Of a stretch of DNA of 64,000 bases, positions 6,060 to 46,751 are shown one piece after another. A program made the position numbers and the translations under genes. The DNA is from Serpentinicella alkaliphila (GTDB lineage Bacteria; Bacillota; Clostridia; Peptostreptococcales; Natronincolaceae). The stretch is from the NCBI RefSeq assembly GCF_018141405.1, contig NZ_CP058648.1, positions 2,692,502 to 2,756,501 on the forward strand, written 5' to 3'. Position 1 is the first letter of the stretch; each line of letters starts with the position of its first letter. The notes under the pieces are model-generated. The model was not told the DNA's origin and did no database searches. It worked only from the letters and a program-made list of their open reading frames with translations.

Positions 6060-7220
6060 CTATTTTTTACTTATTATTTCGTAAGCCTTATTAAATGCAT
6101 TATTAAAATCTTCTATAATATCCTCTATATCTTCTAATCCCAAAGATACCCTTACTAGATTACTAGTTACGCCTAATTTTAACCTTTCCGCCTCAGGAAT
6201 CGACGCGTGGGACATCTTAACAGGATAGGATACTATAGTTTCTATTCCACCTAAGCTCACAGCTACAGCTGGCAGAGTAAGTTCCTTAAGAAATGCCTTA
6301 GTAAAGCTTTCTGATTCCATTTTAAAGGATAATACAGCCCCAGCCCCGGATGCCTGGGAATAGTGTATATCTCTATTAGGGTGACTTTCTAGTCCAGTGT
6401 AGAATACCTCAGTTACAGCCTTATGATCGGATAACCATCTAGCTAACTTATCAGCACTACTTTGCTGATAGTCCATACGTACTTTTAATGTTTTTAGACC
6501 TCTTAAAAGAAGCCAACTATCCTGAGGTCCTAGTACGGCACCGACAGTATTTTGTATCCTATAAATTTTCTTAGCCAAACTTCTTTCATTTACAACTACT
6601 AGTCCACCTATAACATCACTATGCCCACCTATAAATTTCGTAGCACTGTGAATTACTATATCAGCCCCTAATTCTAAGGGTCTTTGTAAATATGGAGATA
6701 AAAATGAATTGTCCACCATTGTTATGAGATTAAATTCCTTTGCAATGTTAATTGCACCTTTTAAATCTGTAATTTTAAGTAGAGGATTAGATGGTGTTTC
6801 TAGATATAAGCCTTTTGTATTTGTTTTTATATTTTTTCTAATTTCTTCAAGGTTTTCAGTATCAACAAAGGTTGCTTCGATACCGTGATCTTTTAATTGA
6901 GTAGTACATGCCCTATAGGTTCCACCATAAATATCTTTACAAACTAAGAGGTGGTCTCCTGCTGCAAAGGTTAACAGAACTGACGAAATAGCAGCCATAC
7001 CTGAGGCAAAGGCATATCCATAGGTTCCACCCTCTAGTAAAGCTATTGTTTCCTCTAGACCTTTCCTTGTTGGGTTGCCAGATCTAGAATAATCGAATTC
7101 ACCCATATTATCTACATCTTCTTGATGAAAAGTAGAAGCTTGATATATTGGTAGACTCAAGGCCCCCGTATGAGGGTCCTTACTACCACTATTACATATT
7201 AATTTCGTACCAAATTTCAT
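6060..7220 (-). CDS. metC: Cystathionine beta-lyase (MetC-like trans-sulfuration enzyme)
   Basis: A 386-residue PLP enzyme of the Cys/Met metabolism family. The PLP lysine is K195 in 'HSATKFIGGH', with 'YSRSGNPTR' and 'ASGMAAISS' as other family motifs. In the metI-metC pair it would split cystathionine to homocysteine, pyruvate and ammonia; gamma-lyase activity cannot be excluded. The frame is open to 7325, but its first 35 codons are antisense to the IS110 left end and are shared with the frameshifted transposase at 25375-27052. I therefore start at the ATG at 7218-7220, with AAGGTGA just upstream. Before insertion the intergenic sequence would have read TGAGGTGATTAT-ATG, with the metI stop TGA inside the ribosome binding site. 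The IS110 copy now separates this gene from the S-box-controlled metI by 1.6 kb and a bidirectional hairpin, so expression may be lost or altered. Confidence 0.9.
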   Translation of the reverse strand: MKFGTKLICNSGSKDPHTGALSLPIYQASTFHQEDVDNMGEFDYSRSGNPTRKGLEETIALLEGGTYGYAFASGMAAISSVLLTFAAGDHLLVCKDIYGGTYRACTTQLKDHGIEATFVDTENLEEIRKNIKTNTKGLYLETPSNPLLKITDLKGAINIAKEFNLITMVDNSFLSPYLQRPLELGADIVIHSATKFIGGHSDVIGGLVVVNERSLAKKIYRIQNTVGAVLGPQDSWLLLRGLKTLKVRMDYQQSSADKLARWLSDHKAVTEVFYTGLESHPNRDIHYSQASGAGAVLSFKMESESFTKAFLKELTLPAVAVSLGGIETIVSYPVKMSHASIPEAERLKLGVTSNLVRVSLGLEDIEDIIEDFNNAFNKAYEIISKK

Positions 7221-7239
7221 ATAATCACCTTGTATAATG

Positions 7240-7480
7240 AAAACATAGGGGAAGTCATTATACATTTTCCTTTCTAGATTATTTTCTATATAATCTTTAT
7301 AGGCGCTGTGGATTAGTTTGTTCACCTACGGCAGCTGTCCCTATACAGCCGACTGTTTCTTTTGAGGCTATAACCACAGCTCTATGTTCATTTGTTAATT
7401 AGTTAGATAACGCTTTGACGTTTTATATATAGCAAGGATACATTTAACATAGGGTTTGTGGAAACATAGCGTACTATATT
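7240..7480 (+). ncRNA. Putative bridge RNA region of IS110 copy A
   Basis: The non-coding left end is essentially the same as in copy B. Candidate guides are TTCACCT (7321-7327, left target), TGAG (7363-7366, right target), TAGTTAG (7400-7406, left donor) and CAAG (7433-7436, right donor). A GCTGTGG/CCACAGC stem encloses the target loop. The RNA start would be just after TATAAT (7233-7238); both RNA ends are estimates. See the copy B entry and the findings. Confidence 0.6.
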
Positions 7481-7496
7481 TAAGGAGTTGATTACT

Positions 7497-8677
7497 ATGT
7501 TATTTGTGGGCATTGATGTTGCCAAAGCTAAACACGATTCTTTGTATCTTAGACTCTGATGGTGTTATTCATACTAATTCTTTACGTATTTCTAATTCTA
7601 AGGAAGGTTTTGATACCCTATATTCTTCTATCCTTTCTGCTCTTACTCCAAGAGTATTAACAACGTAAAAATAGGACTTGAATCAACAGGTCATTACAAA
7701 GACAAATATCACAAATTATCTGTATTCCAAAGGCTTTCAGGTCACCATCCTAAATCCATTGGCTACTAATCTTTTCCGTAAGGCTCAAACCCTTAGGAAA
7801 ACTAAAACAGATAAGACCGACGCTAAGGTCATTGCAACTATGCTCTTTACTGATGAATCTAAATCCTATTCACCAGTATCATATCAGATTCAGGAGCTAA
7901 AGTCACTAACAAGACACCGTCATAGAATGGTTAGTTACCGTTCTAGACTTAAACTTTCAGTTAGTCGCTTAATAGATATCATTTTTCCTGAATTGCCAAG
8001 CTTATTTTGGTCTATACACCAAAGTTCCGGCTATGCATTATTAATTGAATTACCAACCCCCGATAGTATTTACAACTGCAATCTGACAAAGTTGACAAAC
8101 CTAATAAGAATGACCTCTAAAGGTAAATATAGCAAAGAGAAAGCAATTGCTTTAAAAGAGCTTGCTATCAAATCTATTGGGTCAAGCAATCGCTCTCTCT
8201 GACCTTCGAATTACAACAAACTATTCGCCTCATACAATCTGTACAAACAGAAATAGATGCATTAGATAATCAAATTAAATTAGTCGTACAAGAACTCAAT
8301 ACCCCACTCATTACTATTCCTGGCATTGGATATACTCTAGCTGCCATTATATTAGCTGAAATTGGTCATATTGATCGTTTCTCCAACCCACTAAACTTCT
8401 TGCATTTGCAGGTATGGATCCTTCTACTTACCAATCTGGGACTTACAATGCATCTAAAACTCCAATGGTTAAGAGAGGCTCTACATACCTTAGGTGGGCT
8501 ATTATGCAAGCATCTAGACTTGTTGCTATGCGCGATAAAGTCTTTAGTGATTATATGGTCAAAAAGCGTTCTGAAGGCAAACACTTCAATGTTGCCAGAT
8601 GCCATGTCGGTAAAAAGTTAATTAGGGTAATTTACTACCTCCTAAAAAACAATACTGCATTTGTTCCACAAGTCTAA
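7497..8677 (+). pseudogene. IS110 DEDD transposase, frameshifted (copy A)
   Basis: The ATG at 7497 has AAGGAG 9 bases upstream and starts 'MLFVGIDVAKAKHD'. Compared with copy B there are small indels or substitutions at 'GATTCTTTG', 'CTTACTCC', 'TACAAAGAC', 'CTCTCTCTGACC' and 'AACCCACTAAA', which break the frame several times, so only internal pieces stay open (7678-8202 and 8414-8677). The family catalyses bridge-RNA-guided recombination with an N-terminal RuvC-like DEDD domain and a C-terminal serine domain (Transposase_20). Copy A cannot encode an active protein as written. The clustering of small G/C-related differences could also reflect consensus errors in a repeat. Confidence 0.85.
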
Positions 8678-8693
8678 TTTAATCTATTTTTTT

Positions 8694-14659: not shown

Positions 14660-15484
14660 CTAATTATCTTTTTTAGTCAAGTATTCATATAAAGCATCGG
14701 TCCAATGTCTCAATTTGATATGTGAATTATTATTCAAGCTTGAGTTTTTAGGTATTGATGCCTTTTTATTAATTTCTTGTGTAGATAGAGGCAATATAGT
14801 TGCATCTATCTTTTTAATCCTACATATCTCTATTGCTAAGTCGTACCAAGAACAACTGCCATCGTTAACTAAATGATAGGTTCCATAATCACCATTCTCA
14901 ATCAAACTCTTTATTGCCAGCGAAATATCAGCCGTATACGTTGGACAACCTATTTGGTCATTAACTACCTTTAAAATAGTATTGTCACTACTTAGATTTA
15001 AAACAGTATTTATAAAGTTTTTACCTCTATTTCCAAATAGCCATGAAGTTCTAATTATATAGTATCTTTCAGTATTGTTTTGAACTTCAATTTCACCTCT
15101 ATATTTTGTCAAACCATAAACATTGATTGGGCTTGGTTTGTCTGTCTCATCATATGGACTTCCCTTCTTACCATCAAAAACATAATCAGAGCTTATATAT
15201 ATTAATTTACTTTTTAGCACTTCACTTATTTTTGCAATATTTCCTGCACCTAAAGTATTTGTTCTATATGCTAAATCCTTTTTTACTTCACATGACTCCA
15301 CATCTGTATATGCTGCGGTATTAATTATATAGTCCGGCCTAATCCGGCTTAAAACATCATAACATCTGTATGGATTTGTTATATCTAAGTCTAATTTATC
15401 AAAAGAGTATAAATCATGTTCCGTCAATTTCATATTCAATTCTCTACCCAACTGTCCAGATCCACCCAATATACAAACTTTCAT
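14660..15484 (-). CDS. rmlD: dTDP-4-dehydrorhamnose reductase (RmlD/RfbD)
   Basis: A 274-residue short-chain dehydrogenase of the RmlD family. It has the N-terminal NAD(P)-binding 'ILGGSGQLGREL', 'NTAAYTDVESCE', the catalytic Ser/Tyr/Lys region 'YISSDYVFDGKKGSPYDE' and 'NVYGLTKYRGE', and 'RTSWLFGNRGKNF'. It makes dTDP-L-rhamnose for surface polysaccharides. No rmlA, rmlB or rmlC is in the window, so they must be elsewhere if rhamnose is made, or the protein serves a related deoxysugar. The glycosyltransferase gene immediately upstream (29-base gap, same strand) suggests joint use in cell-wall glycan synthesis. Confidence 0.88.
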   Translation of the reverse strand: MKVCILGGSGQLGRELNMKLTEHDLYSFDKLDLDITNPYRCYDVLSRIRPDYIINTAAYTDVESCEVKKDLAYRTNTLGAGNIAKISEVLKSKLIYISSDYVFDGKKGSPYDETDKPSPINVYGLTKYRGEIEVQNNTERYYIIRTSWLFGNRGKNFINTVLNLSSDNTILKVVNDQIGCPTYTADISLAIKSLIENGDYGTYHLVNDGSCSWYDLAIEICRIKKIDATILPLSTQEINKKASIPKNSSLNNNSHIKLRHWTDALYEYLTKKDN

Positions 15485-15513: not shown

Positions 15514-16506
15514 CTAAACTAATGTTTCATAAGCATTTATTAATTTATCAGCTACAATTTCCCACGTGAAATTATGTCTAATATGCTTTCTTAAAATATC
15601 ATTTCTTTCCTGCTTTATTGCTCTACTAATTTTTGTTTCAATATCATTTATGTTTTCATATGTAGAGTACAGAGCGTAATGTCCTAGGTAGTCCTTAGTA
15701 CTACCCTCTGCTGTAGTTAAAAGATTACACCCTGATAAACCAGCCTCTAGATTAACTAAACCTGGTATCTCATACCAGCTTACAAGTACATGTAATTTTG
15801 CAGCACTATAAAAGCTATTTAATTCATGATGATTTACCTTAGGTACATATATTAGTTCCTTATTATGCTTTAAGCACTCATAATAATAAGAATAGTCATT
15901 TATAGGCCCTACAAGTATTAATGGAATATTTAGTTTGTTAGCAACCTTTGAGAGAGTTAACTGGTTTTTGTGTGGAGATATTCTTCCTACGCATAAAATA
16001 AAATCCTCTAATTCATAAAGATTATAAAAGCGTTCGCTAGTATCTTCTTCAAAGATCGTATCTACACCATTAGGAATAACTTTATATGGTATACTTATGT
16101 TAAACTCTTTCTCTACCTCCTTCATCTCTGTTAAAGAACTAGGTAAGATAAGATTTGCATTTTGAAGCACTTCTTTCCTTAAAATGTTTTGCTTATACCA
16201 TCTGTAATGTAATATTTCCGTCCGTTTATTGAGAGCAATGTATTTTATATAATTCCAATATATTGGTGATATAACAATTTTTTTCTTATATTTTTTGGCA
16301 TTTTTATAAAATTGATAAGTATCTTCAATTCGAATTGTGTTAAATAAATGGATTAAATCATACTTTTCTAAATTAGCTCTAGGATCGCTTGATACCTCAA
16401 TTTGAAGGCCTCTTTTTAATAAGTATTCCATTGTCTTTGTGAGCTGTATACTATCCCCCGCCATATTATCTTTATAGTCTCTTCGTATATACATTAATAC
16501 CTTCAT
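15514..16506 (-). CDS. Family 1/GT-B glycosyltransferase
   Basis: About 330 residues with a GT-B fold. The C-terminal nucleotide-sugar binding half is clear: 'FILCVGRISPHKNQLTL', 'NIPLILVGP', 'HELNSFYSAAKLHVLVSWYEIPGLVNLEAGLSGCNLLT' with the E-x7-E type motif of GT4 enzymes. The N-terminal acceptor half is more divergent. The frame is open to 16623, but GGGGTG precedes the ATG at 16504-16506 ('MKVLMYIRRDYKD') and the longer version would run into the promoter of the divergent CAP gene. It lies upstream of rmlD in the same direction. Donor and acceptor unknown. Confidence 0.85.
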   Translation of the reverse strand: MKVLMYIRRDYKDNMAGDSIQLTKTMEYLLKRGLQIEVSSDPRANLEKYDLIHLFNTIRIEDTYQFYKNAKKYKKKIVISPIYWNYIKYIALNKRTEILHYRWYKQNILRKEVLQNANLILPSSLTEMKEVEKEFNISIPYKVIPNGVDTIFEEDTSERFYNLYELEDFILCVGRISPHKNQLTLSKVANKLNIPLILVGPINDYSYYYECLKHNKELIYVPKVNHHELNSFYSAAKLHVLVSWYEIPGLVNLEAGLSGCNLLTTAEGSTKDYLGHYALYSTYENINDIETKISRAIKQERNDILRKHIRHNFTWEIVADKLINAYETLV

Positions 16507-16644
16507 AAACGCACCCCATAGCACTATTTTTGTATGTTTCCAAATATTACCCAGCCAAATCGGTTGAAATATCAATATCGTTCCTGTATTATATAGACAA
16601 GAGGTTAAACAAAATAACTTCACAATCTGAAAGGAGAAATAATT

Positions 16645-17316
16645 ATGTTAAAGGTTAAATTATCCAGAAAGGTTGCTATATCAGTACTATCTACTACATT
16701 AGTTCTTTCTACAGTTACATTCCCAAGTGCATCAACTGTTTATAGGGTTGTATATAATCCAAACACAAATGTAGTTAGAACATCATCAAACTACTCAATA
16801 ACACAAATACTACAAAGATACAATATAAGAGTAGCACCTGTTCAGCAAACTTCAACTCCTATACAGCAACCTCAGGCTCCTGCTACTCAACCTCAGGCTC
16901 CTGTTCAACAACAGCCACAGCAAAATGTCTCTAATGCAAGACATTCTCTAACGGCAAATGAAGTTAAATTAGTTGAATTAGTTAACAGTGCAAGAGCAAA
17001 TGCTGGACTAGCACCACTGGCTATTGATGTTGATTTATCTTATGTTGCAAGAGTAAAATCGCAGGATATGCACGATAACAAGTATTTTTCACATACTTCA
17101 CCGACATATGGTTCACCTTTTGATATGATGAAAAAATTCGGTATTCAATATAGAAGTGCTGCAGAGAATATTGCTAGAACAAGCAGTGTAGAGTCTGCTC
17201 ACAATGGATTTATGAATTCTGAAGGTCACAGAAAAAATATAATGAACCCACGTTTTACTCATATAGGAATCGGTATATATAACGGTTACTATACTCAAAT
17301 GTTTATTCAAAAATAA
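16645..17316 (+). CDS. Secreted CAP/SCP-domain protein (YkwD-like)
   Basis: A 223-residue secreted protein. Residues 1-31 are a signal peptide with basic start and hydrophobic core, followed by a Pro/Gln-rich linker (about 65-95, repeated QPQAP-like units). A C-terminal CAP domain (about 103-223) has 'ELVNSARANAGLAPLAID', 'SQDMHDNKYFSHTSP', 'AENIA' and 'GHRKNIMNPRFTHIGIGI'. The conserved His/Glu residues of the CAP cavity are present. Such proteins are common in spore-forming Firmicutes (YkwD, SafA neighbours) and act at the cell or spore surface. AAGGAG precedes the ATG at 16645. It is divergent from the glycosyltransferase gene. Confidence 0.9.
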   Translation: MLKVKLSRKVAISVLSTTLVLSTVTFPSASTVYRVVYNPNTNVVRTSSNYSITQILQRYNIRVAPVQQTSTPIQQPQAPATQPQAPVQQQPQQNVSNARHSLTANEVKLVELVNSARANAGLAPLAIDVDLSYVARVKSQDMHDNKYFSHTSPTYGSPFDMMKKFGIQYRSAAENIARTSSVESAHNGFMNSEGHRKNIMNPRFTHIGIGIYNGYYTQMFIQK

Positions 17317-17379: not shown

Positions 17380-18009
17380 TTATAGGTCTAGGTCTTCTAG
17401 TTGTCTTGGGAAGAACTCTGGGAATGGAGCTTCTTCAAACTCTTCACAAATATCATCTGGGAAGAACTCTTCACATTCAGGTGGCTCTGGACAGAATCCG
17501 AATGCTGGGATAAATAATTGTACTACTCCTACAACCTTAACAATCATAAATACACCTATTGCTAAAATAATAGAGTCTTTTGTGATGAATGGCTCGCTCA
17601 ATAATTGAGAAGCAGTTTCTAACACAATCTTAAATGTAAATTCATCTCTAGCTTCTGGTATAAACATAACTATATCTTTTTGTATTTCTGGAAGTTCTCC
17701 AACAATTTCAATTACTTTTCCTGTGTCAACATTTTTTAATTTTACTACAAATGTTACTAACACTCTAAATCTTACTCTGCTAAAGTTTGGTCTAGAAGGT
17801 ATTGGTGTAATTATTAATGAGCCATTTACTATTTCTCCTGGATTAAATCTTATGCCTAAAAATTCATACTCAAGACATCCTTCTGGTAAAGGTAATACAA
17901 ATTCTTCGAAGCATTCTCTTTGTTGACATTGAGCATATACTTTTTTAGCTATAATACATTCTGATTTAAAATCAGGAAAGTATGGATCATGTGTGAATCC
18001 ATTTGCCAT
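17380..18009 (-). CDS. Cys-containing protein of unknown function, ECI/GFC type (209 residues)
   Basis: I do not recognise a named family. The protein has no signal peptide, begins with a Cys-containing segment 'SECIIAKKVYAQCQQRECFEEF', continues with beta-strand-rich sequence, and has a hydrophobic stretch near residues 145-170 ('IILAIGVFMIVKVVGVVQLFI'). It ends in an acidic, Pro/Phe-rich tail after 'GFCPEPPECEEFFPDD'. It shares an ordered set of motifs (ECI-x(3)-KVY near the start, QL-x(5)-GFC near the end) with the protein at 45222-46142, and both are divergent from a coiled-coil protein gene. A spore-surface role would fit Cys-rich cytosolic proteins of spore formers, but that is inference. 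Confidence 0.7.
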   Translation of the reverse strand: MANGFTHDPYFPDFKSECIIAKKVYAQCQQRECFEEFVLPLPEGCLEYEFLGIRFNPGEIVNGSLIITPIPSRPNFSRVRFRVLVTFVVKLKNVDTGKVIEIVGELPEIQKDIVMFIPEARDEFTFKIVLETASQLLSEPFITKDSIILAIGVFMIVKVVGVVQLFIPAFGFCPEPPECEEFFPDDICEEFEEAPFPEFFPRQLEDLDL

Positions 18010-18223
18010 TTTTATTCCCCCTTACTTTTATTCCAACATATTATACAATACCAATATATGAGTTCTGGGATTAGAGTGTTACAAATATAGGCTTACATTT
18101 ACACTAAAGTTGAAATATTTTTTTGCATATGACATTTATTATTTACATTAATAAATATTAAAATTACAACATAGTATTGATTAAAGGGTAATATTATATA
18201 TTAATTTGAGGAGGTAAAATTAA

Positions 18224-19765
18224 ATGTCCTACTCTACAGAACAGCATTACTTAATCAAGACTAAAGATTACTTAAGCTATTTTTTCTATATAAATGAAGA
18301 TCAGAAATTGCACTATAAATTATTCAATTCATCGGCCCTTTATATGAAGGATGAACTAATATCTGATGATCAAATAATAGATTACTCTGGGTGTATAGAT
18401 AATTTAGATCAAATTCATTTACTATATTTAGATATAGCTGGAAATTTAAAATACGTTGTTGGTAGAAATAATAATTGGAATACAAAAGACATATCTAAAT
18501 TAGATATTGCATCAAATAATTATAGCTATTTTACAATATATATACAAAATAATTATACTCACCTTTTATATATAAAAACAAATTTATTAAATAAAGTGAT
18601 TTCATCAATAGAGCATATTTTCTGGGACAAAGCTACAATTGTTAAGAATAAGGTTACTACTTATATGCCTGGTAAGTATATTAGTCCATTTCATATAGAT
18701 ATAGATAGCACTGGAAGTATACATATGGTTTTTAAAGGTATTTATAAGAAAAATAATCAGCTATATTACTCTAGATTTAATATTAATACAAAAAAATGGA
18801 GCGCTAGCGAGATACTTACTGATCCATCATCTGACCACTCTCATCCTTTTATTCTTATTGATAAAAAAGATAATCTACATTTATGCTGGTGCACGGTTGT
18901 AAATAATAACTTTGTTTTGAGCTATAAAAGTAAAGAAAGACTAATTAATGTTAAGGAAAAATGGTCCGAGAAATTGACTCTCTCAGACCAAAATAGTAAC
19001 TATATCTCACCAGTGATTGTGCAGCATGGAAATAAAATAAAGATACTTAGTCGTCAAAATGACACAATTTCAGAAATAATCTCAGATAATTTTGGTACTA
19101 GTTGGAATCTCATTAAACATGAGAATTATAATAAATGTGAGCAGCCATTACTTGTGAAATATCATGCTAATTTATCTGATGAAAATGAACAGTATAAACT
19201 AAGGTATCTCTATGTTGAAGTTTCTGATCACATCAAGTCTTTAGGTACTGAAATATACATTAAATCCAAACCCACTACCAATACAATAAAACCAGCTCCT
19301 GAACAACCCAAACCAAAGGATTTAATTAAAGATATTACTAATGATGTTATCCCTTACAATAAAATTCAACATGATGATGATAATATTGAAGAAAAAATAT
19401 TAAGTATTATAAAAGACATTGATAGCTACATTAATGATATGGAGTCACATATTAAAAAACTAAGTGAAATTAAAAGTTATTTAAATTCTTCAAAAACAAC
19501 TGATACAAGTAAAGCAAATTCAAATGAACAAGAAATCCAATACCTTATAAAGTTTATAAAGGATGTGGAAAGTCAGCTACAGGTCTTAGAGGATGAAAAA
19601 CAAGAACTAATTAGAGAGCTAAACTATTATAATAAAAAGGTTGAGTATTTTGAAAATAAGCTTGTGGAATTAAAAAAACAATATTTAACTTTAGATGAAA
19701 TTGTTAATAAAGATATTGTTAAGGAAACAAGCTTACTCGATAAAATTATTAATTACTTCAAGTAA
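18224..19765 (+). CDS. Propeller-like repeat protein with C-terminal coiled coil (513 residues)
   Basis: No signal peptide is visible. The first about 340 residues contain spaced repeats of the form (I/L)HLLY-x-D-x-x-GNL-x-Y ('IHLLYLDIAGNLKYV', 'HLLYIKTN', 'IHMVFKGIYKKNNQLYYSRF', 'LHLCWCTVVNNNFVLSYKSK') and W-containing strands, which suggests a BNR-like beta-propeller. A Pro/Lys linker near residue 365 leads to a long coiled coil, roughly 390-505, ending 'LLDKIINYFK'. GAGGAGG precedes the ATG at 18224. It is divergent from the ECI/GFC-type gene at 17380 and its 3' end overlaps the convergent DUF3343 gene by 8 bases. Specific function unknown; a structural or surface role in spores or cells is possible. 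Confidence 0.72.
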   Translation: MSYSTEQHYLIKTKDYLSYFFYINEDQKLHYKLFNSSALYMKDELISDDQIIDYSGCIDNLDQIHLLYLDIAGNLKYVVGRNNNWNTKDISKLDIASNNYSYFTIYIQNNYTHLLYIKTNLLNKVISSIEHIFWDKATIVKNKVTTYMPGKYISPFHIDIDSTGSIHMVFKGIYKKNNQLYYSRFNINTKKWSASEILTDPSSDHSHPFILIDKKDNLHLCWCTVVNNNFVLSYKSKERLINVKEKWSEKLTLSDQNSNYISPVIVQHGNKIKILSRQNDTISEIISDNFGTSWNLIKHENYNKCEQPLLVKYHANLSDENEQYKLRYLYVEVSDHIKSLGTEIYIKSKPTTNTIKPAPEQPKPKDLIKDITNDVIPYNKIQHDDDNIEEKILSIIKDIDSYINDMESHIKKLSEIKSYLNSSKTTDTSKANSNEQEIQYLIKFIKDVESQLQVLEDEKQELIRELNYYNKKVEYFENKLVELKKQYLTLDEIVNKDIVKETSLLDKIINYFK

Positions 19766-20048
19766 TAGCCACCTTTTTATATGAATTTCTTCCATTGATT
19801 TTCTCAACTAGATAAATTCCGGATATATTTTTCTTTAGGTTCGCTGACTCATCAAGTAATAGCTTTAAATCATCTTGCTCATTAAATTTTATTGAGTAAC
19901 TACAACCTGATTTAATTCTACATGGCGTAGAGATAAGTAGATATTTATTTGGATGAGTACTCTTAAAATAGTGATACATTTGCATTGCATGATTTCTTGA
20001 TTCATAAACAGCTATAAAATATGTTTGTGCAGGGCTTACTTTGTACAT
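19758..20048 (-). CDS. DUF3343 (putative Se/S carrier-like) protein
   Basis: A 96-residue protein with the DUF3343 pattern: 'TYFIAVYESRNHAMQMYHYFK', then 'YLLISTPCRIKSGCSYSIKF' with the conserved Cys in S-G-C-S, followed by a short alpha/beta remainder. The family is annotated as putative Se/S carrier-like because of similarity to small sulfur-relay proteins, but its job is not established. AGGAGG lies before the ATG at 20048. The gene is alone, convergent with the propeller/coiled-coil gene, and upstream of nothing in the same direction except its own promoter region. The extended C-terminal segment after residue 55 is longer than in the smallest members. Confidence 0.75.
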   Translation of the reverse strand: MYKVSPAQTYFIAVYESRNHAMQMYHYFKSTHPNKYLLISTPCRIKSGCSYSIKFNEQDDLKLLLDESANLKKNISGIYLVEKINGRNSYKKVAIT

Positions 20049-25374: not shown

Positions 25375-27052
25375 TTAAAAAGCGCCCCTAGTAAAGAAAT
25401 CCTCAGGTATTTCTAGGTATTTCATAACGGTTTTGACATTGTCTTCTAAAGGTTTATGATATCCTCGATGAAGGATACCGTTAATTTTTACAGTAGACGT
25501 TGCAACTGAAAAAAATATTCTATAAATTGCCATAAGTGAAGGGCGATCCATCTTTATTTTACCAGGACCAACAATTGTTGATTTATCATTTTCTAAGCCT
25601 CTTCTTACAACATATTCAGCTACACTTAATAAAAGCATTAGAATAAGTAACAGATAACCCAATGCCTCTACACGTCTAGGTGAATCAACAAAAAATGAGT
25701 TGACAAATTGAGGTGATTTCAAAAATTGAAATTTCCTCTCAACCGCACTTTGGGTTTTATATTCTAGAAGAATATCTACAGCACTCATAGATTGCTTTGT
25801 GGACACCACAATAAATAAGCACTCTTTATCTAAACTTTCTTGAATGCTTTTTTCATCCTTGGTCACTGCAAAAGTAAAAGTATATTTTAAGCCAACTGTA
25901 TCCTTGGAAGTATCTTGACTAGGTCTACCCCTACGCCTTATTTCTTGGCTTTCTATTTCTATAGACACTTTGTGATACTGGAGTTTATTTAACTCTTGGC
26001 GATTTAATTTATTAATTTCAAGCTGTGCATCTTCTAAACAGGCAAAGCTTCTTTGATTCATAGTTTTAGCTAGTTTTTCTAAGGTTTTGGATTCATTGAG
26101 AATACGTTTTTCAAGGGTCTTTGCTTTCTGAAACTTAAGTTTTTCTGAATAGCATACTGCCATCTTAAGTGGAATTCCTTGATATACACATTCAGTTTCA
26201 TAGACACGGTAAAGTGATGGCTTTGTTGATGTTGGAACTTCAACAGTAGGAAGTTCATTAACGGTGTAGCCAGGCATATTCTAGTGCTTTTTTACCTTCT
26301 TTTATATTATCTGGCATACGTGTAATCAGCTCAATACCTAGGGAACGTGATTTTTGTAGGAATGCTTTTGTAAAAGCGGCACTATCAGCAATGTAGAAAA
26401 ATTCTTCTTGTTCTAATTCAAACTGCTCCCGTAGCTGCACTGCGCGGTCTAGATAATCAATATTAGAATGCTTATCATCGGCATTACCGGATAACAAAAA
26501 TCCGTCAATGCAAATGCCTTGAGTTGTGCCCAAAGCAAACTTAATTTGTTTCTTATCAAAGCGCTTTTGTTTTGAGTAACCAAAGGTAATATCAACGACT
26601 CCTGCAGTACCATCACTTGTTTCATACTGTCCCCACATTACCTTTGAAGTAGTATCAAAGTTAATATTAGAAAGCTTAATGCCATAACGCTTGAAGGCAC
26701 TTACTGATAACTCTGAGTACAAAGCTAAGCATCCTGCATCAACCATAGCATCTAGGAAGCCACCAAACCTATCATCATTAAGCTTATTTATATCAATAGG
26801 CATGCCAAAAATGGTTTCAAGATCAATATTTTGAAAATATTCGTCCATTCGTGATAGAGGGTGATGATCATCTGCCATGTTGATTAGCATTAGTTGAGCC
26901 ATAATTCCATAGGAAATATCAGTTGGGCGACCTTGATGTTGTTCTAAATGTTTATTAAAAATTGTATCCAAATTAACTTGTTGACAAAGACCAGCGATGA
27001 GTCCAGCTTTGCCGTCATAAAATGATTTGATTTGGCCAAAATCAATCTTCAT
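25375..27052 (-). pseudogene. IS1634-like (DUF4277/DDE) transposase, frameshifted
   Basis: Two consecutive frames make one transposase of about 560 residues. The first runs from ATG 27052 ('MKIDFGQIKSFYDGKAG', DUF4277-like N-terminus, then 'NINFDTTSKVMWGQYE' and 'FFYIADSAAFTKAFL' with the first two catalytic Asp residues) to 26258. The second continues at about 26277 ('GYTVNELPTVEVPTSTKPS') and contains the Glu motif 'SAVERKFQFLKSPQFV'. A one-base shift near 26270 separates them. The IS110 copy B is inserted in its ribosome binding site, 5 bases before the start codon. The frame can also be extended 35 codons upstream into the IS110 left end. I could not define the inverted repeats; the outer limits probably lie near 25340-25375 and beyond 28643. 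Confidence 0.85.
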
Positions 27053-27076
27053 AAATTCACCTTGTATAATGAAAAC

Positions 27077-27310
27077 ATAGGGGAAGTCATTATACATTTT
27101 CCTTTCTAGATTATTTTCTATATAATCTTTATAGGCGCTGTGGATTAGTTTGTTCACCTACGGCAGCTGTCCCTATACAGCCGACTGTTTCTTTTGAGGC
27201 TATAACCACAGCTCTATGTTCATTTGTTAATTAGTTAGATAACGCTTTGACGTTTTATATATAGCAAGGATACATTTAACATAGGGTTTGTGGAAACATA
27301 GCGTACTATA
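27077..27310 (+). ncRNA. Putative IS110 bridge RNA (copy B)
   Basis: The 266-base non-coding left end precedes the transposase. A stem GCTGTGG (27137-27143) / CCACAGC (27206-27212) encloses a loop carrying TTCACCT (27153-27159), identical to the left target plus core in this locus. The same loop has an inner hairpin (GGC..CTGT/ACAG..) and, on its 3' side, TGAG (27195-27198), complementary to the right target plus core. Further on, TAGTTAG (27232-27238) equals the element's right terminus and CAAG (27265-27268) is the reverse complement of core plus left terminus. The order target loop then donor loop matches described IS110 bridge RNAs. RNA ends are estimated from TATAAT at 27065-27070. Confidence 0.68.
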
Positions 27311-27328
27311 TTTAAGGAGTTGATTACT

Positions 27329-28508
27329 ATGTTATTTGTGGGCATTGATGTTGCCAAAGCTAAACACGATTGCTGTATCTTAGACTCTGATGGTGTTATT
27401 CATACTAATTCTTTACGTATTTCTAATTCTAAGGAAGGTTTTGATACCCTATATTCTTCTATCCTTTCTGCTCTTGGCTCCAAGAGTATTAACAACGTAA
27501 AAATAGGACTTGAATCAACAGGTCATTACAGCACAAATATCACAAATTATCTGTATTCCAAAGGCTTTCAGGTCACCATCCTAAATCCATTGGCTACTAA
27601 TCTTTTCCGTAAGGCTCAAACCCTTAGGAAAACTAAAACAGATAAGACCGACGCTAAGGTCATTGCAACTATGCTCTTTACTGATGAATCTAAATCCTAT
27701 TCACCAGTATCATATCAGATTCAGGAGCTAAAGTCACTAACAAGACACCGTCATAGAATGGTTAGTTACCGTTCTAGACTTAAACTTTCAGTTAGTCGCT
27801 TAATAGATATCATTTTTCCTGAATTGCCAAGCTTATTTTGGTCTATACACCAAAGTTCCAGCTATGCATTATTAATTGAATTACCAACCCCCGATAGTAT
27901 TTACAACTGCAATCTGACAAAGTTGACAAACCTAATAAGAACAGCCTCTAAAGGTAAATATAGCAAAGAGAAAGCAATTGCTTTAAAAGAGCTTGCTATC
28001 AAATCTATTGGGTCAAGCAATCGCTCTCTGACCTTCGAATTACAACAAACTATTCGCCTCATACAATCTGTACAAACAGAAATAGATGCATTAGATAATC
28101 AAATTAAATTAGTCGTACAAGAACTCAATACCCCACTCATTACTATTCCTGGCATTGGATATACTCTAGCTGCCATTATATTAGCTGAAATTGGTCATAT
28201 TGATCGTTTCTCCAACCTTGACTAAACTTCTTGCATTTGCAGGTATGGATCCTTCTACTTACCAATCTGGGACTTACAATGCATCTAAAACTCCAATGGT
28301 TAAGAGAGGCTCTACATACCTTAGGTGGGCTATTATGCAAGCATCTAGACTTGTTGCTATGCGCGATAAAGTCTTTAGTGATTATATGGTCAAAAAGCGT
28401 TCTGAAGGCAAACACTTCAATGTTGCCAGATGCCATGTCGGTAAAAAGTTAATTAGGGTAATTTACTACCTCCTAAAAAACAATACTGCATTTGTTCCAC
28501 AAGTCTAA
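27329..28508 (+). pseudogene. IS110 transposase with one frameshift (copy B)
   Basis: Start ATG 27329 with AAGGAG 9 bases upstream; a TTG at 27320 is in frame but overlaps that site. The N-terminal DEDD RuvC-like domain shows 'FVGIDVAKAKHD', 'IGLESTGHYSTN' and 'KTDKTDAKVIATML'. The frame runs to a stop at 28225 ('RFSNLD') and continues in another frame as 'TKLLAFAGMDPSTYQSGT', 'SKTPMVKRGSTYLRWAIMQASRL' to 28508, the C-terminal domain with the catalytic Ser region. Removing one base in AACCTTGACTAAA would give an intact protein of about 393 residues. Copy A is also broken at exactly this spot, with a different sequence. Confidence 0.88.
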
Positions 28509-28524
28509 TTTAATCTATTTTTTT

Positions 28525-34665: not shown

Positions 34666-35445
34666 ATGTTTTATTACTATAATCAAGTGCCTTGTCCACC
34701 TGGAACAACACCATATATGATTATGGCAGGTGATACCTATTATAGGCTAGCAATTAGATTCAATACTACAGTTGAAGCTATTATTGCTGCAAACCCTGGA
34801 GTTAATCCAAATATGTTAATGATAGGGCAAAGAATTTGTATTCCGACGGCTACTCCTCCAACTACATGCCCAGCTGGTACAACACCATATACTATTAGAG
34901 CAGGCGATACATTCTACTCAATAGCAAGAAGATATAATATCTCTCTGGACGCATTACTTGCTGCAAATCCAGGAGTAGATCCTGACAGACTATTTATAGG
35001 TCAAGTAATCTGCATACCAGGAACAACTCCTCCGCCACCTCCTACACCTTGTCCAACCTTAAGAAGAGGTAGTACTGGACCAGACGTTAGAAGATTACAA
35101 CAGTTATTAACTTCAGCTGGCTTTAGCCCAGGAGCTATTGATGGAATTTTCGGTGCACGAACTGAAGCAGCAGTTATTGCTTTCCAAACTAGTAAAGGTT
35201 TAACTCCAGATGGTATCGTTGGTGTTAGAACATGGACTGCATTAGGAGTAAACTGCGGCGTAACACCACCACCAACACCTACTTGTCCTGCTGGTACAGT
35301 AGCTTATACTATTAGATCTGGTGATACATTCTTCAATTTAGCTGCAAGATATAATACAACCGTAGAAGCAATCCAAAGAGCTAATCCAACAGTAGACCCT
35401 AACAGATTGCAAATCGGTCAAGTAATTTGTATTCCTACAGCCTAA
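34666..35445 (+). CDS. LysM / peptidoglycan-binding repeat protein without signal peptide
   Basis: A 259-residue modular protein. LysM 1 covers residues about 13-63 ('YMIMAGDTYYRLAIRFNTTVEAIIAANPG'), LysM 2 about 72-120 ('YTIRAGDTFYSIARRYNISLDALLAANPG') and a peptidoglycan_binding_1 domain about 135-195 ('GPDVRRLQQLLTSAGF', 'FGARTEAAVIAFQ'). LysM 3 covers about 208-257 ('YTIRSGDTFFNLAARYNTTVEAIQRANP'). Pro/Thr-rich linkers with paired Cys join them. No signal peptide is visible, as in spore-coat/cortex LysM proteins (SafA/YhdR type) that reach the spore surface from the mother cell; spore association is inference. AAGGAG precedes the ATG at 34666. Codons are less AT-biased than in neighbours, which suggests high expression. 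Confidence 0.9.
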   Translation: MFYYYNQVPCPPGTTPYMIMAGDTYYRLAIRFNTTVEAIIAANPGVNPNMLMIGQRICIPTATPPTTCPAGTTPYTIRAGDTFYSIARRYNISLDALLAANPGVDPDRLFIGQVICIPGTTPPPPPTPCPTLRRGSTGPDVRRLQQLLTSAGFSPGAIDGIFGARTEAAVIAFQTSKGLTPDGIVGVRTWTALGVNCGVTPPPTPTCPAGTVAYTIRSGDTFFNLAARYNTTVEAIQRANPTVDPNRLQIGQVICIPTA

Positions 35446-42801: not shown

Positions 42802-44985
42802 TTAATCAAACTTTAACTTAGATAATGCATCTGATAAGGCCGTATTTATAGGTTCCTGACTGGATTTTTTCTGATCCTTTAAAAATTTAGAGATATCTTT
42901 TTTAGAAGCAATATCACCTTTTTCCTTTTTTCTCTCATTGAATGATGAGAGCTTCTCTCTAAATCCACAGCTACAAACGAAAATCTGGCCTTCTCCTTCT
43001 CCCCGTAGTTCTAGCTTTTTCTTACAGTTAGTGCACCTAGCATTAGTAACTCTTGAAACCCCTTTCTTATAGCCACAGTCCCTATCCTGACATACTAAAA
43101 GTTTACCCTTTTTATTTTTAACTTCAAGTAGATTTTTACCACATTCAGGGCACTTATTACCAGTAACATTAGTATGTTTAAATTTACTTTCGCTGTTTTT
43201 GATTTCATCAATTAGTCTTCTCGCATAATCTTTCATATCTTTAATAAAGCTGTCTTTTTGTAATGAACCATTAGATATTGCATTTAATTTATGCTCCCAT
43301 GTTGCCGTTAGTTCAGGTGACTTTAAATCTTCAGGCACTAAATCTAACAATTGTTTACCCTTTGCTGTTATAAATATTTCTTTGCCCTTTAATTCTATTA
43401 AAAAGCTATTAAACAACTTTTCAATAATATCTGCTCTTGTTGCTACAGTTCCGATGCCCCCAGTTTCTGCTAAGGTTTTAATTAACTCCTTATTATTACT
43501 ATTAACATATTTTGATGGATTCTCCATAGCTGAAAGAAGGGAGCCCTCAGTAAACCTACTAGGAGGCTTTGTTTCTCCTTCTGTTCTTTCTATAGAATTA
43601 ATATTTAAATGTTCTCCAATACTTATTATAGGAAGCTGTTTTTCTAGCACCTCTTCCATATCATATTCAATATTATTTTTATAAACCTCTTTCCAGCCTA
43701 ATCGAATTACATTTATACCTTGTAGAAGAAATTCTTCTTCCCCAATTCTTCCTATTACATTTGTTTGCTCATATTCAAAGGGTTCATATAAAGCTGAAAT
43801 AAATCTTTTTACAACTAGATCATATATTTTTCTTTCACTATCACTTAAGGCTCCAAGTAAAACCCTCTGCTCCGTTGGAATAATTGCATGATGGTCAGAA
43901 ACCTTTGAATTATCTACTAATAACTTACTGATTTTTAATGGTTTAGCCAATAACTTATGAGCAATATTAGAATAAGGACCAACTCCACAGGCTTTTATTC
44001 GATCCTTTAAGGTGTCTATAATATCAGTTGAAATAAATCTCGAGTCTGTTCTTGGATATGTAAGTAATTTATAGTTCTCATAAAGCCTTTGCATTATATT
44101 TAAAGTTTCCTTGGCAGAGTAGCCAAATATTTTGTTTGCATCCCTTTGAAGTTCTGTTAGATTATATAGTTGTGGTGCATAGCTTTTTTTCTGTGTTTTT
44201 TTAACATCTTTAATTTCAATTTTTTTATTTCTAATATTTTCGCTTACTTTTTCTACTTTCTCTCTATTAAATGTTTTTACTTCCCTAGAGGTTTTATCCT
44301 GCCATACAAATTTTAATCCATCACCTATAACATATAATCCATAATATTTTTTAGGAGTAAAATTCCTTATTTCCTCTTCTCTTTGTGCTACCATTTCTAA
44401 CGTTGGAGTCTGAACCCTTCCGCAGGATAGCTGCGCATTATACTTTGTTGTTAATGCCCTAGTAGCATTAATACCGACTAACCAATCAGCTTCTGACCTT
44501 GCAACTGCGGAATCATATAATTTTTCATAGGCTTTACCATCTTTTAACTTACTAAATCCTTCTTTAATGGCTTTATCGGTTACAGATGATATCCAAAGAC
44601 GCTTGATAGGTTTGTTTATCTTTGATTTTTCAATTATCCATCTTGCTACTAATTCACCTTCCCTTCCTGCATCAGTAGCAATAACGATTTCTTTAACGTC
44701 CTTTTGTCCTAATAATTCTTTTATAGTATTAAACTGCTTCGACGTTTTTTTTATAACTATAAGTTTTAAGCTATCAGGTAATATAGGTAAATCCTCTAAT
44801 CTCCATGAAGCATATTGCTTGTTATATACCTCTGGATCAGCTAATGTAACTAAGTGGCCTAGAGCCCATGTAACTATATCCTTTTGGCTTTCAAAATAAC
44901 CATTTCCTTTTTTATTACAATTCAGTACTCTAGCTATATCTCTAGCCACTGATGGTTTTTCTGCTAAAATAAGTCTTTTGTTCAT
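42802..44985 (-). CDS. topB: DNA topoisomerase III (TopB)
   Basis: A 727-residue type IA topoisomerase. N-terminal Toprim domain ('LILAEKPSVARDIARVL', 'ATDAGREGELVARWII'), the active-site Tyr region 'LLTYPRTDSRFIS', 'SCGRVQTPTLEMVAQRE', and 'ETGGIGTVATRADIIEKL'. At the C-terminus there are zinc-ribbon-like Cys clusters ('CPECGKNLLEVKNKKGKLLVC', 'CTNCKKKLELRGEGEGQIFVC') and a basic tail. It relaxes and decatenates DNA and works with RecQ-type helicases. Chromosomal copies are common in Firmicutes; plasmid or ICE copies also exist, but no conjugation genes are near. ATG at 44985 with GGGATTG upstream. Confidence 0.95.
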   Translation of the reverse strand: MNKRLILAEKPSVARDIARVLNCNKKGNGYFESQKDIVTWALGHLVTLADPEVYNKQYASWRLEDLPILPDSLKLIVIKKTSKQFNTIKELLGQKDVKEIVIATDAGREGELVARWIIEKSKINKPIKRLWISSVTDKAIKEGFSKLKDGKAYEKLYDSAVARSEADWLVGINATRALTTKYNAQLSCGRVQTPTLEMVAQREEEIRNFTPKKYYGLYVIGDGLKFVWQDKTSREVKTFNREKVEKVSENIRNKKIEIKDVKKTQKKSYAPQLYNLTELQRDANKIFGYSAKETLNIMQRLYENYKLLTYPRTDSRFISTDIIDTLKDRIKACGVGPYSNIAHKLLAKPLKISKLLVDNSKVSDHHAIIPTEQRVLLGALSDSERKIYDLVVKRFISALYEPFEYEQTNVIGRIGEEEFLLQGINVIRLGWKEVYKNNIEYDMEEVLEKQLPIISIGEHLNINSIERTEGETKPPSRFTEGSLLSAMENPSKYVNSNNKELIKTLAETGGIGTVATRADIIEKLFNSFLIELKGKEIFITAKGKQLLDLVPEDLKSPELTATWEHKLNAISNGSLQKDSFIKDMKDYARRLIDEIKNSESKFKHTNVTGNKCPECGKNLLEVKNKKGKLLVCQDRDCGYKKGVSRVTNARCTNCKKKLELRGEGEGQIFVCSCGFREKLSSFNERKKEKGDIASKKDISKFLKDQKKSSQEPINTALSDALSKLKFD

Positions 44986-45221: not shown

Positions 45222-46142
45222 TTAGCAGTGGTGTGGTGGATGAACAAATGGTTCATTTACCTGTGGTGGGAATAATGGTGGGAAATTATCTCCACAAATT
45301 GGTCTTACTCTTGCTTCTTGAGAACAGAATCCTGTACTTAATACGCAAAGTTGTACTGGAACCTTAATTTTCTTCTCGCAAGTAATACAAATTGCAATTA
45401 TTAGGTTCGCAAATATTTCTCCAGTTGTTGGGTTAAATGTTATATCCCTTGCAATACTTTGAGTTGCTAATCTACCTAAGAATAATGCGTTGCAGAATTC
45501 AGTAAATTGAGGCAAGAAAGCAGAATCAAATACTGAAGGCATACAAAGTTCAAAGAAGTTTGTTAATATTTGATTAATTGGTGCTCTACCTCTAAGTGTA
45601 ATAACTTCTGGAACTCCTAATGCATTAATGAACTCAACGTCCATTTCGATTAATACTGTACCAGTAACAGATATTTCTTGGGATCCAAAAATAGGTGTGC
45701 CTAATCCTTCTTCATCACAGTCAGTTGTATCTGTGTAGATTAAGTATTGTAATAAGCCAGCTGGACCTGGTACTGTTACAGGGCAACCCTTACCGTCAAG
45801 TACAAATTGTGCTCCAGAAAGTGTTGTTGTTGGAGTAATAGTTAAGTTTTTAGGGTCATTAATATTATTTGGGTTAAAGAATTTTTTTGCTCTAATATCT
45901 AGTACTCTTGTAATTCTAGATTTTGGACCGCATTTTGTAACTGGAAGTGCAGCGAATGGTACTCTTGCAACAGATTGTAACCCTTGTAGATTAAAAGTAA
46001 CTGAGTCATAAACCTTATCAACAAATATACACTCACCAACTACATTTTTTAGACTACCATCGAAATAACATCCTGTGTTTGCTACACAACATGGTTCATC
46101 TATTTGCATCGCTTCAATATTTAGTTGTTCCTTGTTTGACAT
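45222..46142 (-). CDS. Cys-containing protein of unknown function, ECI/GFC type (306 residues)
   Basis: The start is ATG 46140-46142 with AAAGGAGGAG upstream (the frame extends to 46169). There is no signal peptide. An N-terminal Cys-rich stretch ('EPCCVANTGCYFDG', 'GECIFVDKVYDSV') is followed by a beta-strand-rich body with 'GTVLIEMDVEFINALG' and Cys pairs ('AICITCEKKI'). A C-terminal segment 'VPVQLCVLSTGFCSQE' leads to a Pro/Phe/His tail ending 'PPHHC'. The ordered motifs ECI-x(3)-KVY and QL-x(5)-GFC are shared with the protein at 17380-18009. Both genes are divergent from a coiled-coil protein gene. Disulfide-linked spore-surface protein is a possibility, not a conclusion. Confidence 0.72.
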   Translation of the reverse strand: MSNKEQLNIEAMQIDEPCCVANTGCYFDGSLKNVVGECIFVDKVYDSVTFNLQGLQSVARVPFAALPVTKCGPKSRITRVLDIRAKKFFNPNNINDPKNLTITPTTTLSGAQFVLDGKGCPVTVPGPAGLLQYLIYTDTTDCDEEGLGTPIFGSQEISVTGTVLIEMDVEFINALGVPEVITLRGRAPINQILTNFFELCMPSVFDSAFLPQFTEFCNALFLGRLATQSIARDITFNPTTGEIFANLIIAICITCEKKIKVPVQLCVLSTGFCSQEARVRPICGDNFPPLFPPQVNEPFVHPPHHC

Positions 46143-46304
46143 ATTATTCAACTCCTCCTTTATAGGCATTAATTAATTATTCGCTTACTGTAAAATATGA
46201 TAAATAGTAAGTTTAGGTGCTACTTCTTAGTAATTTTTATAAAAATAATGCATATATTTTAATAACTTGCGTTGCTACAATTAAATATGGAGGTGTAGTT
46301 ATAT

Positions 46305-46751
46305 ATGATGCAATATCAAAAGGCTAATCATAATTTTATACCGAAAGAAAATACAGAAGCACAAAGCAATGAAATAGATGAAAATATAAATATAAAGGAA
46401 GATACATTAGAATTAAGCATGACTGAAAATTCATCCTTGAAGGAAGAAAATAAAAAGCTACAAATAGAAATAGCGGGCTTGAAAAATAGATTGGAAGAGC
46501 TAGAGTTACTTTTGGTTAGAAAAGACAATGAAGTCAGTAGTCTAATTAAAGAATATAACGAATATATCGAATTTCAAAATAATCCAAATGAGTTTAAAGA
46601 ACTAAAGGCAAATATAAATGAAGTTGACACTATGAAAAATCAAATTACATCATTAAGCGAAGAAAATGAAACCTTGAAAAGCCAAGTAGAATCGTATAAA
46701 ACTCATATACAATATTTATATTTAATACTACTTATCCTAGCAATTATCTAG
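46305..46751 (+). CDS. Coiled-coil protein with C-terminal membrane tail (148 residues)
   Basis: A polar N-terminal 40 residues lead to a heptad-rich coiled coil (about 45-130; 'SLKEENKKLQIEIAGLKNRLEELELL', 'MKNQITSLSEENETLKSQVESYK') and a short hydrophobic C-terminus 'YLYLILLILAII', so it is a tail-anchored type. ATGs at 46305 and 46308 follow GGAGGTG. Divergent from the ECI/GFC-type gene at 45222 and convergent with the gene at 46789. No family recognised. Confidence 0.65.
   Translation: MMQYQKANHNFIPKENTEAQSNEIDENINIKEDTLELSMTENSSLKEENKKLQIEIAGLKNRLEELELLLVRKDNEVSSLIKEYNEYIEFQNNPNEFKELKANINEVDTMKNQITSLSEENETLKSQVESYKTHIQYLYLILLILAII

Follow-up and report, generated by a model that had tools for sequence, protein, structure and literature searches.

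What does an unnamed gene pair do when it appears at two places in the genome of one bacterium? The question is raised by a 64,000-nucleotide stretch of Serpentinicella alkaliphila DNA (the window, meaning the whole stretch analysed), in which a 209-residue protein (SMALL, locus 1) and a 306-residue protein (LARGE, locus 2) share two short motifs, and each of their genes is transcribed divergently from a gene for a protein with a coiled coil (DIV1 and DIV2, respectively). An earlier note on this DNA took the arrangement for a repeated functional module, perhaps of the spore surface. Based on profile comparisons, gene neighbourhoods, promoter patterns and predicted structures, the divergent pair is probably a mother-cell sporulation module that helps to build the outermost spore layer, either the exosporium or the outer coat, and its constant partner is a propeller protein.

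SMALL possesses ECI-IAK-KVY near its start and QL-FIPAF-GFC near its end, and LARGE possesses ECI-FVD-KVY and QL-CVLST-GFC at the corresponding places, which confirms for both proteins the motifs ECI-x(3)-KVY and QL-x(5)-GFC, with the spacing that the earlier note had given. The pairwise BLAST match between the two is weak (E 0.015), and early profile comparisons yielded E-values of 0.00038 and 0.0013. With the profile built from 105 SMALL-type sequences, 49 C-terminal columns that contain the VQL..GFC..FP block align with the LARGE family at E 6.9e-7 (probability 92); the reversed controls of this comparison gave 0.33 and 0.35. The N-terminal motif aligns at the correct place and is not significant alone (0.32), and the middle parts of the proteins align without confidence. 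A bridging family of two sequences (216–239 residues) aligns with SMALL over 148 columns (E 2.8e-11) and with both ends of LARGE (2e-5 at the start, 2.8e-4 at the end), the two motifs being in order; because its values against LARGE barely exceed the noise of reversed controls, it is insufficient for homology by itself. Against homology stand other reversed controls as low as 2.7e-4 and 6.6e-5, the latter from a family compared with its own reversal. SMALL and LARGE are distant relatives within a wider ECI/GFC superfamily (the ECI family in the following), the significance being carried by the C-terminal block, and the profile check by which the earlier note wished to see whether they are related at all came out in favour of a relationship.

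Neither protein has a convincing match among catalogued families. SMALL has zero Pfam or NCBIfam matches at E ≤ 1, and the same scan of LARGE finds nothing except a chance-level zf-FLZ match (E 0.13). The DUF3794/SPOCS model is unmatched by both in the Pfam scan, and the sequence search finds no solved relative of LARGE, the best match being a ribosomal protein (E 0.18). Among 54 aligned LARGE sequences, eight cysteines are invariant. The 306-residue start of LARGE (46142) is favoured over a 315-residue frame because a GGAGG box lies just before it, within the longer frame; several close relatives (L032, L033, L034 and L040) begin at the same point.

In a set of 148 genomes, consisting of the own genome and relatives (match threshold E ≤ 0.001), SMALL has matches in 34 genomes and LARGE in 53, the own genome being included in both counts, and in some of the 34 the SMALL match is confined to a related protein of about 280 residues or to a larger one. 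Among the best 80 of 147 named-genome loci, the carriers of LARGE include Anaerovirgula, several Alkaliphilus, Natronincola, Geosporobacter, Tissierella, Sedimentibacter and Anaerovorax. S. alkaliphila itself contains one LARGE and three SMALL-type matches, namely the 209-residue protein and two domains within DUF11-repeat proteins of 1086 and 1007 residues. These two proteins are encoded outside the window (contig positions 3099797–3103057 and 3109368–3112391); the SMALL-type domain is C-terminal in one and central in the other, and one also has three DUF4183 repeats. A UDP-glucose/GDP-mannose dehydrogenase gene and a YheC/D ATP-grasp gene are located near them.

The pairing with a propeller is supported by the gene neighbourhoods. 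Twelve wide loci were taken from the window's family and one neighbouring family, and in 10 of them SMALL stands opposite a DIV1 homologue (the exceptions are L072 and L073). A shorter propeller gene, mostly of about 340–480 residues, faces LARGE in most of the LARGE loci examined. In the window's family, a DIV2-like coiled-coil gene follows this LARGE-side propeller, with an overlap of 4 to 80 bases in six loci. DIV2 is the counterpart of this separate coiled-coil gene, and DIV1 and DIV2 show no mutual sequence match. The LARGE-side propeller itself is absent from S. alkaliphila, where, apart from DIV1, a search of the whole genome yields no more than a weak partial match at another place; the coiled-coil gene likewise faces LARGE alone in G025 and G036, two genomes of a neighbouring family. 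The earlier note had described a divergent coiled-coil partner and a repeated pair. The divergence holds at both loci, and an ECI gene is present at both, but the constant partner is the propeller and not the coiled coil, and the coiled-coil proteins differ in their build, DIV1 combining propeller and coiled coil and DIV2 being a separate coiled coil.

Several relatives share the gene order propeller/LARGE, rarA, Se/S carrier, DIV1/SMALL, YkwD, glycosyltransferase and RmlD, and a DUF11/DUF4183 protein of about 1000 residues with an ECI domain sits in the same cluster in one relative. In 16 related genomes with both ECI genes on one contig, the two genes lie less than 8 kb apart in 10 and 18–31 kb apart in 6, so the distance of 27 kb to which the earlier note pointed is not special. 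For the same reason, the idea of one ancestral cluster broken in this genome by IS110-type copies was dropped, since 6 of the 16 relatives show like distances. Direct repeats of 99–100% identity are present in the window at 7211–8689 and 27043–28520, 19.83 kb apart; an IS110-type transposase lies inside the second repeat, and one repeat stands between the two ECI loci.

Sampled across the class, 132 of 391 genomes match the propeller profile, and 7 match the LARGE profile. From more than 150 propeller matches listed, 36 were chosen by hand; two are at contig ends, and the upstream side can be read in the other 34, of which 21 are divergent from an ECI gene and 1 from cdeC (22 together). The profiles used for labelling this set were partly trained on such loci, and an earlier profile, which predates the collection of these loci, matched 20 of the 21 ECI partners. 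A larger census, biased in that many of its loci were collected via LARGE or SMALL, contains 134 paired propellers among 158, with 7 more at contig ends. In genomes labelled here Clostridiaceae-like (this label is inferred from G+C and gene content; Peptostreptococcaceae-like and Clostridioides-like are likewise inferred labels), ECI proteins of two groups show homology to SMALL (E 3.5e-16 and 1e-13). Furthermore, in three of four Clostridiaceae-like proteins tested, an ECI domain, which the SMALL-type profile recognises at E 2.5e-19 to 4.6e-12, stands behind another propeller-like domain in the same chain, the propeller part of these fusions resting on Pfam matches below the cut-offs. The recurrence in 22 of the 34 loci and the three fusions speak for the functional module that had been proposed. 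Two of the 12 propellers in this set with neither partner (L269:6875-7618 and L272:6965-7660) face proteins with 21–23 cysteines and MKDIQEI near the start, and the protein in L269 matches CryBP1 (PF07029, E 5.4e-8). Outside the window's family, genes judged by eye to encode a cysteine desulfurase and the small Se/S carrier recur beside the pair (L223, L254, L334 and others).

The AlphaFold model of DIV1 (predicted local distance difference test, pLDDT, 86) contains a propeller at about residues 1–345, a coiled coil at 387–497 and a short C-terminal helix at 503–511, the residue numbers of the model being those of the protein minus one. The head, which is predicted with high confidence, is closest to the PLL/PHL lectins of Photorhabdus, which are seven-bladed and fucose-binding (Foldseek E 5.9e-10; VIA-align Z 25.2, root-mean-square deviation 3.1 Å over 299 residues), compared with Z 20–22 for polysaccharide lyases and hydrolases and near 18 for other propellers. 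The propeller-like head suspected in the earlier note is thereby borne out as a predicted propeller of lectin-type fold. There are differences from PLL/PHL as well: the identity in structural alignments is 9–15%, and DIV1 adds a coiled-coil stalk and a tail. The Pfam scan of DIV1 gives weak matches only, all to the coiled coil. Many propeller proteins finish in a cationic amphipathic pattern or in an arginine run with hydrophobic residues; the amphipathic tail pattern, present in 21 of 85, is moderately enriched, since shuffling the tails gives 5.3 on average and 13.8% of 349 other proteins have the pattern. The LARGE model (pLDDT 78.6) is all-beta; its strands reach 26 residues, and several cysteines sit in its low-confidence ends. 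It has no convincing match in the PDB (Foldseek best E 0.013, probability 0.04; best Z 3.0). A new fold is not claimed for LARGE because the model is middling and absence from a match list is no proof.

The intergenic regions were compared with the sigma-K consensus [AC]AC[AC]-N16-CATANNNTA, as quoted in PMC5749712; the sets of regions are non-redundant for identical sequence only, so near relatives are counted repeatedly. The sigma-K regulon pattern occurs upstream of both LARGE and SMALL, exact in the former and with one mismatch in the latter, and these sites are predicted promoters; the promoter search suggested in the earlier note for the two regions, 18010–18223 and 46143–46304, was thus productive. 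Exact sites point toward LARGE in 19 of 72 regions, the window included (shuffle mean 0.16, maximum 1), and toward the ECI type of 273–290 residues in 4 of 4, and none points toward the propeller in the LARGE, 273–290-residue and SMALL sets. A looser pattern is found toward SMALL in 13 of 24 regions (shuffle mean 0.74). In other families, 31 of 38 regions have a relaxed site directed toward the ECI gene and 6 have one directed toward the propeller; shuffled sequences give a mean of 2.0 and a maximum of 5. Toward the propeller, a sigma-E-type -10 box exists at 29 of 72 LARGE loci, against 3.4 in shuffles. With this box at just 2 of 24 SMALL loci, a scheme of early and late timing is no more than a possibility.

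The co-occurrence with sporulation was observed with SpoIVA as marker (PF09547, above its cut-off), which is present in 67 of the 148 genomes. SpoIVA is found in 51 of the 53 carriers of LARGE and in all 34 genomes with a SMALL match; the two LARGE carriers that lack it have assemblies of 86% and 76% completeness. The Fisher values of 6e-23 (LARGE) and 4e-15 (SMALL) are inflated by common descent.

A further link leads to the exosporium. The propeller of one Peptostreptococcaceae-like genome faces a protein of 394 residues with 36 cysteines, and relatives of this protein occur in 39 of the 60 genomes searched in that family. These proteins are the cdeC family, because one relative, with 405 residues and 37 cysteines, has seven of the eight motifs printed for CdeC in PMC7677010, where CdeC is described as an exosporium protein. 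The propeller is divergent from cdeC at 19 of 30 Peptostreptococcaceae-like loci, one of these loci having less than 500 bases upstream, and four Clostridioides-like loci (L307, L309, L310 and L312) are without a propeller facing cdeC. The 19 propeller/cdeC loci (for example, L304–L306) also contain a second match to the propeller profile, of 203–221 residues. A similar-looking stretch had suggested CdeC as a remote ECI protein, and this candidate was rejected, hhalign giving E 0.13 with both ECI profiles and 0.1 and 0.0056 in reversed controls. As the profiles do not match, only a common neighbour is claimed for CdeC and the ECI proteins.

Together with the SpoIVA co-occurrence and the sigma-K-type promoters, the cdeC neighbourhood and the adjoining spore-type YkwD and glycosyltransferase genes support well, if indirectly, the spore surface that the earlier note had proposed. 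The positions of the genes and sites are collected in Table 1.

Table 1. Genes, predicted sites and related loci; positions refer to the window except in the first and last rows
Feature	Position	Strand	Description
Window	bases 2692502-2756501 of single 3.26-Mb contig		
RmlD-type (dTDP-rhamnose synthesis) protein	14660..15484	-	PF04321 E 1.8e-85; neighbour kept by synteny
Glycosyltransferase (group 1)	15514..16623	-	PF00534 E 3.5e-16; neighbour kept by synteny
Spore-type YkwD (CAP domain) protein	16645..17316	+	TIGR02909 spore_YkwD 175.7 bits, cut-off 171; neighbour kept by synteny
SMALL	17380..18009	-	209-residue ECI/GFC protein, 7 Cys, without known domain
SMALL/propeller divergent intergenic region	18010..18223	.	
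Predicted sigma-K-like promoter of SMALL	18052..18080	-	AACA-N16-CATATATTG, start codon 71 nt further; 1 mismatch to PMC5749712 consensus
DIV1	18224..19765	+	513 residues; lectin-fold propeller, linker, coiled coil, short C-terminal helix (AlphaFold)
Se/S-carrier-like small protein	19758..20048	-	PF11823 E 4.7e-12; neighbour kept by synteny
LARGE	45222..46142	-	306-residue ECI/GFC protein, 15 Cys
Predicted sigma-K-type promoter of LARGE (perfect)	46191..46219	-	CACC-N16-CATATTTTA, start codon 77 nt further
Conserved promoter-like box	46229..46258	+	GTAATTTTTAT...GCATATATT; faces propeller gene in relatives, DIV2 here
DIV2	46305..46751	+	148-residue coiled coil, hydrophobic C-terminal tail
Propeller-like + ECI fusions	L261:3541-5007, L238:7840-9351, L346:12619-14109		

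Two further genes of the window were noted. Beside DIV2, a 354-residue protein (46789–47853) has zero Pfam matches, and its relatives remain beside the DIV2-type gene. At 34666–35445, a LysM and peptidoglycan-binding protein with three LysM stretches is possibly another spore-envelope gene.

Among known systems, the nearest by description is CsxA. According to PMC7333573 and PMC4942563, CsxA, listed in the latter as UniProt G9F2G0, is a basal-layer protein of the C. sporogenes exosporium with 299 residues and 25 cysteines. Its gene belongs to a cluster that has zapA on one side and a U32 peptidase gene on the other, and it is divergent from a highly conserved open reading frame. By this description alone, LARGE is similar in its size of about 300 residues, its richness in cysteine and its occurrence in spore-formers, and the ECI genes, too, stand divergent from a conserved frame, as described for csxA in PMC7333573. 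G186, a Clostridiaceae-like genome, has about 2.5 kb from zapA a gene for an ECI protein (287 residues, 20 cysteines) that is divergent from the propeller. LARGE differs in its 15 cysteines in 306 residues, and in the window it is not near zapA, being flanked by a gene that looks topoisomerase-like by eye (42802–44985) and by DIV2. No protein of the size of CsxA, with 299 residues and 25 cysteines, is found among the loci examined, the Clostridiaceae-like ones included; the nearest, with 304 residues and 25 cysteines in L086, belongs to the LARGE family in a genome from the order of S. alkaliphila. CdeC of Clostridioides difficile (405 residues) is alike in that its family shares the divergent propeller, and it differs in containing 9% cysteine, against 3–5% (7 of 209 residues in SMALL and 15 of 306 in LARGE). 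The DUF11/DUF4183 repeat proteins are connected through the ECI domains fused to DUF11 repeats in the two proteins of the own genome, whereas SMALL and LARGE themselves match neither repeat in the Pfam scan. No description of the propeller partner came up among the papers listed in literature searches on the clostridial exosporium, cysteine-rich spore proteins and spore lectins.

For the module in the spore, we infer the following place and order of action. The ECI/GFC protein would be a structural subunit of the outermost layer, with an all-beta core and conserved cysteines, whose flexible, cysteine-bearing ends may crosslink the subunits by disulfides into a sheet, and it would be made late, from the sigma-K-type promoter. 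The divergent partner would be a propeller of lectin fold that is carried by a coiled-coil stalk and finishes in a membrane-seeking C-terminal tail, propeller and stalk being a single chain at locus 1 or the products of two overlapping genes on the LARGE side of relatives. The propeller would most likely bind the ECI protein or glycans on surface proteins, the latter being considered because the cluster has a glycosyltransferase gene and a rhamnose-synthesis gene, and it may position or tether the outer layer during assembly.

Several observations weigh against this reading. In the propeller-driven set, 12 of the 34 genes face neither an ECI gene nor cdeC, and this genome has no propeller at locus 2, nor do G025 and G036 have one at the corresponding place. 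No exact sigma-K site points toward SMALL in any of 24 regions; in other families, exact sites are no commoner toward the ECI gene (4 of 38) than toward the propeller (5 of 38), and at cdeC relaxed sites are not enriched (1 of 20). CdeC is not detectable as a homologue of the ECI family. In addition, LARGE is not essential for sporulation, since 16 of the 67 SpoIVA-positive genomes are without it.

The same evidence must be weighed under other explanations. The closeness of the propeller fold to fucose-binding lectins, the stalk-like coiled coil and the adjoining glycan genes would also suit an adhesion module of the spore surface, in which the propeller is displayed and binds surface or host sugars and the ECI protein is merely its anchor. 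The cationic, amphipathic or hydrophobic tails of many propellers better suit a membrane-facing role in assembly, and the display of this lectin would be dispensable, given that the propeller is missing at locus 2 and beside cdeC in four Clostridioides-like genomes; we regard adhesion as rather unlikely. Propellers often serve as interaction platforms, and a signal peptide is not apparent by eye in either protein of the pair, so that the propeller might instead serve the mother cell as a chaperone or in quality control. Alternatively, the pair might belong to the cortex or inner coat, as the SpoIVA co-occurrence does not indicate a layer. Such a sporulation-linked role away from the surface is improbable, because the same propeller family adjoins the gene of an exosporium protein, cdeC (PMC7677010), and ECI domains exist in large DUF11/DUF4183 proteins, DUF11 being known from the spore-appendage gene cluster of C. 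taeniosporum in PMC5749712.

It may also be asked whether the pair is a module of the vegetative envelope that tracks spore-formers merely through descent. The positive genomes do cluster in few families, and the Fisher values overstate their independence. The recurrence of sigma-K-type boxes across distant families, the spore-type YkwD neighbour and the pairing with cdeC make this explanation very improbable. The assembly of the outermost spore layer is therefore preferred, as a probable role of the divergent pair.

Beyond this pair, the stalked lectin-fold propeller may be a general and so far unrecognised assembly partner of cysteine-bearing outer-layer proteins, namely ECI proteins in many families and CdeC in the Peptostreptococcaceae-like family; the chances for this wider proposal are about even. 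Matrix proteins that are no longer alike would then share one partner system, which Clostridioides would have lost next to cdeC.

The sheets of the clostridial exosporium are assembled from cysteine-rich proteins that are apparently unrelated, and a conserved partner gene would offer a testable candidate factor for this assembly across many species. Simultaneously, the ECI family provides a nameable family for genes without a Pfam or NCBIfam match. Such a shared partner suggests, moreover, that surface proteins carrying sugars may become bound while the layer is being assembled.

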